Made by a program: the position numbers and the translations under genes
From: Actinomycetes bacterium
Lineage (GTDB): Bacteria > Actinomycetota > Acidimicrobiia > Acidimicrobiales > RAAP-2
NCBI GenBank assembly: GCA_021786095.1
Contig: JAJYNX010000109.1
Span: 1 to 45,940 of the forward strand
Reading direction: 5' to 3'
DNA length: 45,940 nucleotides
Part shown: one piece after another, positions 38,187 to 42,206 of the stretch
How the letters are laid out: each line of letters begins with the position of its first letter
How positions within the stretch are numbered: position 1 is the stretch's first letter
Notes under the pieces: generated by a model
The model's database searches: none
Seen by the model: only the letters and a program-made list of their open reading frames with translations
What the model was told of the DNA's origin: nothing

Positions 38187-40196
38187 ATGGACGGGCGACC
38201 TCAGGACGAAGAACGAGGGGGCGAACCGGGCGGAGCGCTCGGCGATCTGCCCGCTCTGGTGCGTGACGCCGAGCTGGTGCCTCCGCCCCGCCCGGCGTCG
38301 GGCCGCTTGCCGGTGGCCACCCTCGAGGAGTTTCGCGCCCTCTACCGGCGCTCCATCGACGACGTCGGTGCGTACTGGGCCGAGGTCGCCGGCGAGCTCG
38401 AGTGGAGCGCCGGCTGGCCACCCTCGCCGGCGATGACCGGGAGCCTGGCCGAGGGGTTCAACTTCTTCCCCGGGGCGCGGGGCAACGTGAGCGTCAACTG
38501 CGTCGATCGCCACGCGCGCGCCACACCACACAAGGAGGCGGTTCGCTGGATCGGTGAGGACGGGGCGCAGCGGGCGTGGACCTACGCCGAGTTCGCCGAC
38601 CAGACCGCGCGCTTCGCCCAGGTCCTGGTCGACCTCGGGGTGTCGCGCGGTGACGTCGTGGCGCTCTACCTGCCCAACCTGCTCGAGACCTTCGCGGTGG
38701 TGCACGCGTGCCTGCGTATCGGGGCGATCTACAACATCATCTTCTCGGGCTTCTCCGCGACGGCCCTCGCCGAGCGTGTCGTCGACACCGGGGCGCGGGT
38801 CGTGGTGACCGCCGACGAGACGTTCCGTCGCGGCCGGGCCCTCGCGCTCAAGGCGACGCTCGACGAGGTCCTGGACCGCCTGCCCAGCGTGGAGCACGTG
38901 GTCGTCGTGCGTCGTAGCGCCAACCCCGCGACGCCCATGACCGCGCCGCGCGATCGCTACTACGACGACCTGATGGCGGCGACCCCCCACGGAGCCGACC
39001 CCGTGCCCCTCGAGGCCAACGACCCCGGCTTCATCATCTACACGAGCGGGACCAGCGCCCGCCCCAAGGGGCTCGTGCACAGCGGACTGGGTTTTCTCAC
39101 CGGCGCCTACCACAACGTGAAGTACGCGCTCGACCTCGGGCCGGAGGACGTGTACTGGTGCACGGCCGACTGTGGCTGGCTGACCTTCCCGATCTTCGAG
39201 CTGATCGGCGCGACGGCCTGCGGCGCCACGATGCTGGCGACCGAGGGCGCGCTGGACTATCCCGGACCGCAGCGGCTCTACTCGATCCTGGAGGAGCACC
39301 GGGTGACCAAGGTCTTCACCGCGCCGACGGTGCTGCGCATGCTGGCGCGTCACGGGGGCGAGCTGGCCTCGCGTTTCGACCTCTCGGCGCTGTCGCTCCT
39401 GGCGCTGGTGGGTGAGCCCCTCGACGCCACCACCTGGCACTGGGTGCGCGACCACCTCGGCGACGGGTCGCTCGAGATCAACAACACCTACGGCCAGAGC
39501 GAGACGGGCAGCGCGTGGACCTCCTCGGCGGTGGGCGTGACGCCGGCCAAGCCCGGCTCGTGCGGCGTCGCCCTACCGGGCCACGACTACGCGATCGTCG
39601 ACGAGGCGGGCGAGCCGGTGGCGACCGGGTCGGTCGGGTACCTCACGATCACTCAGCCCTTCCCGGCGCTGGTTCGCACCATCTGGGGAGACCCGCAGCG
39701 CTACCGCGCGCAGTACTTCACGCGTTTTGGGCCCTCGCGCTACGACAGCGCCGACGCCGCGATCAAGGACGCCGACGAGCACGTCTGGGTCGTGGGTCGG
39801 GTGGACGACGTGATCAACGTGGCGGCGCACCGGCTCTCGACGATGGAGATGGAGAGCGCGCTGCTGACGATGCCCGGCGTGGCGGAGGCTGCCGTGATCG
39901 GCGTCGACGACTCGGTCAAGGGCCAGGTGCCCGAGGCCTTCGTGACGCTCACGTCCGCGCCGGGGACCGCGATCAGTGAGGAGGACCTGCGCCAGCGCCT
40001 GGTCGATCAGATCGGCGCGATCGCGCGCCCACGCCGCGTCCACGTGCTCTCGACGATGCCGCGCACCCGCAGCGGCAAGATCGTGCGTCGGCTGTTGCGC
40101 GAGCTGGTGGTCGACGGTGCCGCGCGCGGTGACACCAGCGGCCTCGAGGACCCCGAAGTCCTGGCGCAGCTCGAGGCCGAGTTGCGCCGCGAGTAG
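38187..40196 (+). CDS. Acetyl-CoA synthetase-like AMP-forming acyl-CoA ligase
   Basis: 669 residues. An N-terminal ACAS_N-type segment has FRALYRRSIDDVGAYWAEVA and LNVSVNCVDRH-like FPGARGNVSVNCVDRHA. P-loop IIYTSGTSARPKG (Tyr285), ADCGWLTFPI, and catalytic Lys631 in RTRSGKIVRR, all like acetyl-CoA synthetase. But the acyl pocket block reads NTYGQSETG: Gly436 replaces the Trp that limits true Acs to acetate, so a larger acyl chain is expected. Early residues are variable and the start ATG (GGGGGTGACATG) is reasonable. The gene ends 6 bases before the SufR-like stop (convergent). Confidence 0.88.
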   Translation: MDGRPQDEERGGEPGGALGDLPALVRDAELVPPPRPASGRLPVATLEEFRALYRRSIDDVGAYWAEVAGELEWSAGWPPSPAMTGSLAEGFNFFPGARGNVSVNCVDRHARATPHKEAVRWIGEDGAQRAWTYAEFADQTARFAQVLVDLGVSRGDVVALYLPNLLETFAVVHACLRIGAIYNIIFSGFSATALAERVVDTGARVVVTADETFRRGRALALKATLDEVLDRLPSVEHVVVVRRSANPATPMTAPRDRYYDDLMAATPHGADPVPLEANDPGFIIYTSGTSARPKGLVHSGLGFLTGAYHNVKYALDLGPEDVYWCTADCGWLTFPIFELIGATACGATMLATEGALDYPGPQRLYSILEEHRVTKVFTAPTVLRMLARHGGELASRFDLSALSLLALVGEPLDATTWHWVRDHLGDGSLEINNTYGQSETGSAWTSSAVGVTPAKPGSCGVALPGHDYAIVDEAGEPVATGSVGYLTITQPFPALVRTIWGDPQRYRAQYFTRFGPSRYDSADAAIKDADEHVWVVGRVDDVINVAAHRLSTMEMESALLTMPGVAEAAVIGVDDSVKGQVPEAFVTLTSAPGTAISEEDLRQRLVDQIGAIARPRRVHVLSTMPRTRSGKIVRRLLRELVVDGAARGDTSGLEDPEVLAQLEAELRRE

Positions 40197-40202
40197 GCCC
40201 GA

Positions 40203-40916
40203 TCAGGCGGTCACGCGGCAGGCGTCGTCGCCGCGCGCGCGCGAGCTGAGCGTGACCGTCGAGCGCCCGTGGCCCAACCCCTCGAGCAGGCCCGCGATGA
40301 GGCCGCGATCGAGCGCGCACAGGACCGGGTGGTGGGTCGCCACCGAGCCGAAGGGGCAGTTCTCGGAGACGACGGCGTTGGCGTTGGTCTCGTCGGGGCG
40401 CGCCGCGAAGCCGTGCGCGGTGAGCAGGCCCGCGATCGCGCTCATGGCGTCCTTGACCGAGCGCGTCGAGGAGTCGCCGGCGCCCAGACCCGGCGCCAGC
40501 GTGCGCCCGTACTCGACGCCCACGTCGTGGGCCAGTGACTCCGAGGCGTCCGGACCCAGGCGCTCCAGGGCCATCTCCAGCAGCGCGACCAGCAGCGCGT
40601 CGCGGCGCACCGAGCCCTCCATGGCGAGCGAGTCGTCGATCACGCGGTAGCCACGGGCCGGTCGACCCGCCGTGGCCTTGCGCACGTTGTCGAAGGTGAC
40701 GTAGCCGCCCTCGGTGAGCCGTTCGAGGTGGTGGCGCACGACGTTGGCGTGCACCTGGCAGTGCTCGGCGAGGGTGGCGGCGGTGGCGCCGGGGTTCTCC
40801 CGGAGGAACAGGTAGATCTTGCGTCGGGTCGAGTCACCGAAGGAGTGGGTGAGGCTGGTCACCGTGGCCGTGAAGAGGGCGGGGTCGAGGTCGTGTTCCA
40901 CCGGCGTCGACGTCAT
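40203..40916 (-). CDS. SufR-like HTH regulator with C-terminal cysteines
   Basis: 237 residues. N-terminal ArsR/MarR-type winged helix (about residues 18-90): STRRKIYLFLREN, TAATLAEHCQVHANVVRHHL and a GRPARGY wing. The C-terminal domain ends with ENCPFG, HHPVLCALD and DACRV, giving Cys187, Cys200 and Cys233 (C-x12-C-x32-C). SufR-type iron-sulfur regulators have a comparable C-x12-C start in this region. It is divergent from mrp/apbC, 77 bases between starts, a carrier in the same cluster-assembly function. It may sense Fe-S status and control mrp. Family resemblance is good; Fe-S binding is inferred. Confidence 0.8.
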   Translation of the reverse strand: MTSTPVEHDLDPALFTATVTSLTHSFGDSTRRKIYLFLRENPGATAATLAEHCQVHANVVRHHLERLTEGGYVTFDNVRKATAGRPARGYRVIDDSLAMEGSVRRDALLVALLEMALERLGPDASESLAHDVGVEYGRTLAPGLGAGDSSTRSVKDAMSAIAGLLTAHGFAARPDETNANAVVSENCPFGSVATHHPVLCALDRGLIAGLLEGLGHGRSTVTLSSRARGDDACRVTA

Positions 40917-40993
40917 GGGCTCAGTGTACGGGGTGGCGGCGCGGACTCGGCGGTAACCTCGACGTGGCCCCACTACCAGGCAAAGGACGTACC

Positions 40994-42116
40994 GTGACCC
41001 TCGACCCCCAGCTGCGCGAACGGATTGACGCGATCGTGGAGCCCCAGCTCGTGCGCCCCCCTGGGCGAGCTGGGCTTCGTGGGGGCGCTCGGCGAGAGTG
41101 GGGGCGCGCCCTTGGTCGAGCTGGTGCTGCCGGTCACCGGGTGGCCGAACCTGGCGTACCTGGAGGCCGCCGTGGTCGAGCGCGTCCCCGGGGCGCGGGT
41201 GGTCGTGCGCGCGATGAACGACGACGAGCGCCTCGCGCTGCGCAACTTCCTGCGCGGGGCGATGGTCGGCGAGGCGTCCGAGCACGGTCACGCTCACGGG
41301 GAGGGGGAGGCGTCGCCGCGCTTTCTGGCCAAGACGTCGCGCACCCGCGTGCTGGGCATCTCGTCGGGCAAGGGCGGAGTTGGCAAGTCGTCGGTCAGCG
41401 TGAACCTGGCGATCGCGCTGGCTCGCGCCGGCCACCAGGTGGGCGTCCTGGACGCCGACGTCTACGGCTTCTCCCTGCCCAAGATGCTCGGGGCGGTCAA
41501 CGACCCGATCGTGCTGGGCGACCTGGTGATCCCCACGCTCGCCCACGGGGTGCGCTGCGTGTCGATGGGCTACTTCGTGCCCGACGAGCAGCCGGTCATC
41601 TGGCGCGGACCGATGCTGCACAAGGCGATCGAGCAGCTCGTCACCGAGGCGTGGTGGGACGAGCCGGACTTCCTGCTGATCGACATGCCGCCGGGCACCG
41701 GCGACGTCGCGCTGACGCTGTCCGAGGTGCTGCCGCGTATCGAGATGTACGTCGTGACGACGCCCCAGGCGGCGGCCCAGCGCGTGGCCCAGCGATCGGC
41801 CTACGCGGCGCGCAAGCTCAAGCTGGCCGTTCGCGGGGTGATCGAGAACATGAGCTGGTTCACCGGTGACGACGGACGTCGTTACGAGATCTTCGGTTCC
41901 GGTGGAGGCGAGCAACTCGCGCGTGACCTCGGGGTTCCCCTACTCGGACAGATCCCCCTGGACGTCGTGCTGCGCGAGGGTGGCGACGCGGGCGCCCCGG
42001 TGGTGGTGGCCCATCCCGAGTCCGAGGCGGCGCGGGCCTTCACCGCGCTCGCCGGCGCGGTGGCGGCGCAGGGCGCGGCGCGGGTCTATCGTCAGGAGCT
42101 CAAGCTGCTCTCGTGA
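40994..42116 (+). CDS. Mrp/ApbC family P-loop ATPase, apparent frameshift near residue 22
   Basis: Two joined frames. From GTG 40994 (AAAGGACG site) the protein reads TLDPQLRERIDAIVEPQLVR, a DUF59/MIP18-like start. After the run of six C at 41056-41061 the matching continuation (PLGELGFVGALGESGG) is in the next frame to the TGA at 42116. Removing one C gives 373 residues, the family length. The ATPase part has ISSGKGGVGKSS (the deviant P-loop Lys), LDADVYGFSLPKM and LIDMPPGTGD. The CxxC that bridges a cluster in many ApbC proteins is not visible where expected (ENMSWFTGDDGRRYEIFG). Read unchanged, translation could begin at TTG 41025. Sequencing error in the C run is most likely. Confidence 0.85.
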
Positions 42117-42152
42117 TCGTCGACCCTCGGGCCGGGGGCCCACCGAGCAGGT

Positions 42153-42190
42153 AGTCACAGCCAGTCACAGTCAGTCCGTCGCAGTCCGCC
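42153..42190 (+). repeat. Four degenerate 10-bp tandem repeats upstream of an SDR gene
   Basis: AGTCACAGCC, AGTCACAGTC, AGTCCGTCGC and AGTCCGCC in register at 10-base spacing, ending 16 bases before the GTG at 42207. The period is one helical turn, as in direct-repeat operators. It follows a GC hairpin (42126-42147) that may terminate mrp. Confidence 0.4.
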
Positions 42191-42206
42191 AGAGGGGGGG
42201 TACAGG

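Follow-up and report, generated by a model that had tools for sequence, protein, structure and literature searches.

A probable SufR of Acidimicrobiales encoded beside mrp, and the dyad box that accompanies it at suf promoters

We propose that the winged-helix protein encoded opposite an mrp/apbC-like gene in the window (the whole analysed stretch of 45,940 nucleotides, from a genome of 2.1 Mb in 117 contigs) is very probably the SufR of Acidimicrobiales, which would govern suf from a position beside mrp. It appears ordinary in kind, as a SufR, and unusual in its place and its operator, and the footprints that speak for it are spread over many genomes. The features on which the proposal is built were computed: the pairing with mrp, the invariant cysteines, a dyad box, the restriction of that box, in ten genomes, to Fe-S genes, and the lack of it in genomes that retain mrp without the regulator. 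Control of suf by the regulator is what we strongly infer. The original prediction of a SufR-like identity agrees with this, as the winged helix-turn-helix and the three-cysteine pattern are conserved in all complete orthologues, and the presence of the gene follows that of the dyad box at the suf promoter.

Re-reading of the sequence returned the same coordinates, strand and cysteine numbering for the regulator as had been predicted (Table 1). The list of cysteines named Cys187, Cys200 and Cys233 rightly and omitted a fourth, Cys53, which is not conserved, the equivalent place being occupied by Phe in 119 of 133 orthologues. The three named residues, in the pattern C-x12-C-x32-C, passed the conservation check proposed for them in all 132 complete orthologues, i.e. 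the 133 strong orthologues minus one copy truncated by a contig end. In Pfam the N-terminal part matches the winged helix-turn-helix families HTH_20 (41.9 bits, cut-off 27), HTH_24 and HTH_5, and the cysteine-bearing residues 157-235 match MetOD1 (24.6 bits, cut-off 23.8). The best match in NCBIfam is the cyanobacterial SufR family (TIGR02702, SufR_cyano), at 42.4 bits far below its cut-off of 178.8, which counts against the SufR assignment. A PDB sequence search gave nothing better than E 0.02, and an AlphaFold2 model built with 20 sequences (mean pLDDT 61, pTM 0.43) was too weak for a fold search.

Table 1. Coordinates of the features discussed, in the window or, where a contig is named, elsewhere in the same genome; all -10 assignments were made by eye
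Feature	Position	Strand	Remark
SufR-like winged-helix regulator, 237 aa	40203..40916	-	stop codon 40203-40205, ATG 40914-40916; strong orthologues in 133 genomes, own included
Cys233 codon, GDDxC	40218..40220	-	invariant in 132/132 complete orthologues
Cys200 codon	40317..40319	-	invariant in 132/132 complete orthologues
Cys187 codon, NCPF motif	40356..40358	-	invariant in 132/132 complete orthologues
Divergent intergenic region	40917..40993		no copy of the order's putative CTAY-N4-RTAG operator
Putative -10 hexamer TACACT of regulator	40923..40928	-	6 nt before ATG
Putative -10 hexamer TAACCT of mrp	40954..40959	+	GGTAACCT/GGTAGCCT recurs here in many own-genus loci
mrp/apbC-like P-loop NTPase	40994..42116	+	Walker A GKGGVGKS present, CxxC absent
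Six-C run, frame change in mrp	41056..41061	+	one continuous frame in 18 related loci
Family-type box TTACTACTATGACCGTAGGGGTAAT	C108:354-378		12 nt before sufB ATG at 391, scores 14/15

A close parallel is SufR of Mycobacterium tuberculosis (Rv1460), a repressor of suf with three essential cysteines, C203, C216 and C244, and a leaderless transcript, according to PMC6034842. Compared by pattern, the two proteins share three C-terminal cysteines and the x12 spacing of the first gap, but the second gap is x27 in Rv1460 and x32 here. The leaderless start may also be shared: because the putative -10 hexamer of the regulator lies so close to its ATG, a leaderless transcript is probable, and a TANNNT hexamer 5-8 nt before the in-frame start is found in 124 of 131 genomes, compared with 5 hits in two out-of-frame control frames combined. 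In M. tuberculosis the suf operon begins with Rv1460, whereas the present gene is unlinked to suf and divergent from mrp; the same paper states that a SufR gene can lie away from suf. The cyanobacterial form carries four cysteines, C-X12-C-X13-C-X14-C, which the window protein does not match, having three conserved cysteines and none between C200 and C233.

Five more distant homologues from other Actinobacteria (L329, L330, L331, L335 and L341; 31-34% identical) carry the same three cysteines and are likewise divergently arranged, with sufB in the place of mrp, which speaks for the SufR assignment. Their intergenic regions contain neither the CTA-N6-TAG dyad of the order nor the published SufR operator CAAC-N6-GTTG, which weighs against it. 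In the tree the regulator clade is joined by relatives from its class (80/83) and the sufB-divergent clade by three other sequences (81/84); these clades and another two groups join at a fork that the tree does not resolve, and a number of branches are long. The regulator and the suf-linked SufR proteins are likely orthologues.

The arrangement with mrp is that of the prediction, two divergent genes over 77 bases, with strands, gap and coordinates correct. Among 198 genomes sampled from the order, 163 have some match to the regulator at E 0.001, and 133, including the window's own genome, were kept at E 4e-33 or better. A divergent mrp lies directly upstream of the regulator in 126 of these 133 by a strict filter, so that the pairing is fixed rather than a matter of chance, and in 127 if one counts G181, where the match to the divergent mrp abuts that to the regulator and was removed by the filter. 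The remaining genomes comprise two in which the contig stops within 70 nt of the regulator (G069, G111), one without mrp in the only 723 nt available upstream (G043), one with just a 44-residue piece of mrp on the same strand near a contig end (G103), and two in which at least 5 kb upstream of the regulator is available and no mrp was found (G140, G048). Outside the order, the regulator is paired with mrp in three of the four genomes of the same class in a phylum-wide sample (L324, L326, L328). Behind the regulator, a cysteine desulfurase gene of the same orientation is present in 91 of the 133 genomes, and 5 of the other 42 have less than 1.2 kb of contig there; the one enzyme that was typed is NifS/IscS-like. 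It is absent from the window's regulator locus and, within 1.5 kb, from 15 further loci of the same genus, and present in 11 loci from other genera of the window's family. Within the genus itself, 6 of 27 genomes have no regulator at E 1e-25; window-type mrp was not found in five of these, and the sixth (G279) has its C-terminal fragment only.

The partner gene belongs to the P-loop family of Mrp, ApbC and NUBPL, with the Walker A sequence GKGGVGKS and a ParA/NUBPL domain (PF10609, 278 bits); it scores 253 bits on the NCBIfam ApbC equivalog, under the cut-off of 348. The CxxC motif of ApbC cluster binding, as defined in PMC8593673, was found in none of 121 partners read, the window's included, the other 5 of 126 having the relevant segment unmatched. 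In this respect the partners differ from the known P-loop Fe-S carriers, and since the motif is missing throughout, the name "Fe-S carrier" would follow for the window-type Mrp from membership of the P-loop family alone. The window's mrp, with a GTG at 40994, is not readable in a single frame, for which either a sequencing error or a real lesion may be the cause. Two Mrp genes were seen in 15 of 30 genomes, the second being about 46-50% identical to the window's.

The prediction had suggested a search for conserved palindromes between the two genes across relatives, and its outcome is divided. In the 126 intergenic regions the dyad GGTA-N3-TACC occurs in 46 and CCTA-N6-TAGG in 43, whereas no 4-base dyad exceeds 9 in 20 dinucleotide shuffles; both are parts of one block, near CGGTATTCTACCTAY-N4-RTAGG-N-GAAAT, whose core CTAY-N4-RTAG is a dyad and whose right flank GAAAT is conserved without symmetry. 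Outside the window's family this box scores at least 12/15 in 70 of 120 order members, a level reached by about 1% of mononucleotide shuffles, and among the class relatives its core is present in the intergenic regions of L324 and L326 and not in that of L328. On the other hand, none of the 6 members of the window's family has it at mrp (all score at most 11/15), and no conserved palindrome was found within 40917-40993 in the window or its family; the best scores in 39900-42200, namely 11/20 and 11/15, both lie outside the intergenic region. The lack of the box at mrp in these 6 genomes and in 50 of the 120 others speaks against the SufR assignment.

The operator of the cyanobacterial and Streptomyces avermitilis SufR is CAAC-N6-GTTG, according to PMC8593673 and PMC11995493. 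The present box resembles it as a dyad with N6 between 4-base half-sites, and further in that the S. avermitilis operator overlaps the -10 and the start site (PMC11995493) while here the left half-site overlaps a -10-like TACTAT. The half-sites differ, being CAAC and GTTG there and ACTA/CCTA and TAGG here, and the published operator itself was found in none of the 126 mrp-regulator intergenic regions and none of 80 regions upstream of sufB.

It is at the promoters of the suf genes, unlinked to the regulator, that the box is most regular. Before sufB its consensus is [AC]CTAY-N4-RTAGK-N-GAAAT, and in regulator-bearing genomes it takes the form TTGTTACTAY-N4-RTAGG-N-GAAAT, starting roughly 35-190 nt upstream of the gene. 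Of 46 genomes with the regulator from outside the window's family, 45 have a sufB box of at least 13/15, compared with none of 14 genomes, from 7 families, in which mrp is kept and the regulator is missing (Fisher p 8.6e-13, uncorrected for relatedness); in two of these families (f18 and f21) a sister genus has regulator and box together. Of the 46 genomes, 25 had been chosen for looking box-poor at mrp, and 24 of them still have the box at sufB. The reading of sufB promoters left out, from 30 genomes, one with no SufB match (G029) and one with a SufB relative of only 46% (G061), as well as 11 of 40 genomes without a usable strong match or locus; the comparison of boxes left out 4 of 30 genomes without a strong SufB match, plus G045, where SufB is matched from residue 118 onwards. 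Four further genomes without the regulator (G027, G098, G130 and G112, with sufB boxes of 12, 9, 9 and 11 of 15) stand outside the groups compared, as mrp was not searched there.

Not all genomes follow the rule, and the exceptions count against the SufR assignment. Eleven genomes lack both the regulator and a complete window-type mrp (in 10 of them the best Mrp reaches just 37-51% identity, and G279 has the C-terminal fragment), yet the box before sufB still scores at least 13/15 in 7 of the eleven; G287, likewise without the regulator, has it in the genus form. These cases may reflect gaps in the assemblies, or a different protein that reads the box. Within the window's family, 2 of 5 members besides the window's genome have a sufB box of at least 13/15 and the other three score 11-12/15.

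The same data bear on the possibility that mrp is the sole target of the regulator, the two forming a distinct module of Fe-S delivery, and that another protein reads the box at suf. The divergent pairing, which extends across the order and to three further members of the class, would suit this arrangement, as would the box between the two genes in 70 of the 120 non-family genomes. However, the same box stands at suf promoters, it is missing from sufB in all 14 genomes that keep mrp without the regulator, and it persists at sufB in nearly all regulator-bearing genomes that lack it at mrp, so that we regard this possibility as very unlikely. The separate Fe-S homeostasis module of the original prediction is accordingly not supported, the box recurring at sufB, sufD and sufC promoters elsewhere in the order, the window's own genome carrying its exact genus-type box at sufB, and neither of the two other homologues found in that genome being on the suf contig.

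If another protein were to read the box, a candidate would be the Rrf2-family protein encoded at C108:11700-12155, 2.7 kb from the suf genes of the window's genome and above the Rrf2 superfamily cut-off; the co-occurrence of regulator and box would then be indirect. A close form of this protein (E 1e-28 or better) is indeed absent from all 14 box-less genomes. It is, however, present in just 17 of 26 regulator-bearing genomes, and each of the 9 without it has a sufB box of at least 13/15, which weakens the candidate; moreover, 70 of 120 genomes carry the box at the promoter of the regulator itself. We give this explanation little credence.

An exact search for CTAY-N4-RTAGGRGAAAT found 23 copies in 10 regulator-bearing genomes and none in 3 regulator-less ones, compared with a single hit of the reversed-pattern control in all 13; the genome-wide scan covered exact copies. 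All 23 lie at promoters of Fe-S assembly genes (sufB 10, mrp//regulator 7, sufD 4, sufC-sufS 2), the suf genes having been recognised by BLAST with proteins of the window's genome or by known SufB places. This distribution is difficult to reconcile with the idea that the box is no operator but a conserved core promoter or initiation element of Fe-S genes: although the overlap with the -10-like TACTAT and the asymmetric conservation of GAAAT would be expected of such an element, and part of the asymmetric box may indeed be core promoter, no exact copy stands elsewhere in the ten genomes, the genomes that retain mrp without the regulator lack the box, and its core is a dyad, far more frequent than in shuffles. 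We therefore consider that idea improbable. We give still less credence to the protein being, instead of a SufR, a 4Fe-4S regulator of respiration like ArnR. ArnR, too, is a winged helix-turn-helix protein with three cysteines (179, 193 and 223, according to PMC12343034), and it is described as controlling narKGHJI and hmp through promoter sites. Against this reading, the 23 exact sites classified here all stand at Fe-S assembly genes, and five of the distant homologues in the phylum are divergent from sufB, the comparison with ArnR being one of described features.

The suf genes of the window's organism lie on a separate contig (C108) from the regulator, which is thus neither in nor beside the suf operon. 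The genus form of the box, TACTAT-N4-RTAGGR-N2-AA, occurs once each in 23 of 41 genomes of the genus, always just before sufB, the own genome included; its exact form was not found in the other 18, a further point against the SufR assignment. In the window's genome the sufB copy is the single exact site, and nothing alike lies between the regulator and mrp. The sequence therefore supports control of suf at a distance in this organism, and gives no support for control of mrp. The prediction also raised the question of a second SufR at the suf operon; none was found, within a contig that starts 390 nt before sufB, and the two further homologues found in this genome are on contigs C11 and C29. 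The former (L002, 1369-2106) is 33% identical to the regulator and has the same three-cysteine pattern, and its neighbour encodes a 438-residue protein that appears, on inspection by eye, to be a multi-span membrane protein. Between sufB and sufD, an open reading frame at C108:2255-3325 resembles by eye an IS630-type transposase.

We propose the following mechanism for the SufR of Acidimicrobiales. The regulator would be a winged-helix repressor, probably a dimer, with a 4Fe-4S cluster that is probably bound by Cys187, Cys200 and Cys233. With an ample supply of clusters, the holo-protein would bind the dyad [AC]CTAY-N4-RTAGG, which is predicted to overlap the -10 region and the start of suf transcription units, and shut these units down; upon loss of the cluster under iron shortage, oxidants or NO, it would release the dyad, allowing suf to be expressed. 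Repression by the holo-protein and derepression upon cluster loss are taken by analogy from published SufR proteins (PMC8593673, PMC11995493, PMC10848736), and the DNA binding, the cluster and the direction of control are presumed accordingly for the present one. Where the dyad sits between regulator and mrp, the regulator would also control itself, the desulfurase and mrp. A desulfurase behind the regulator would fit the link reported in M. tuberculosis, where loss of IscS alters the SufR regulon (PMC10848736).

With respect to the evolution of this system, we find it rather more plausible than otherwise that the SufR gene left suf for mrp in Acidimicrobiia and kept its three-cysteine sensor, that its operator changed from CAAC-N6-GTTG to ACTA/CCTA-N6-TAGG at equal spacing, and that it now heads a single regulon comprising every suf unit and, in more than half of the order members read from outside the window's family, also mrp and an IscS-type desulfurase. 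This would represent a case of operator change at constant spacing. A 2021 review speaks of SufR as described in only two Actinobacteria and of the control of suf in most Gram-positives without SufR as unknown (PMC8593673); the SufR of Corynebacterium glutamicum is treated in the later PMC11995493. Most sampled members of the order, and three of the four genomes of the class outside it, now have a candidate SufR, with a defined site in the order; placed beside mrp rather than suf, such a gene could be overlooked. A full-text literature search for SufR with Acidimicrobi- found no paper, and one for SufR with mrp a single review; searches for SufR with operator, cysteine desulfurase and divergent, and for Mrp/ApbC in mycobacteria with CXXC, returned none. 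The seven families in which sampled genomes miss the regulator and the box together offer a natural experiment.

The 20 named related loci all come from metagenome-assembled genomes, mostly labelled Acidimicrobiaceae or Acidimicrobiales in their record titles, and the isolate names of 8 contain palsa, bog or fen. In three genomes of the sample (G100, G130 and G098; L236, L237 and L238), SufB carries, behind residue 294, an interrupting insert whose first residues are CLAEGSRVTT and which looks intein-like by eye.
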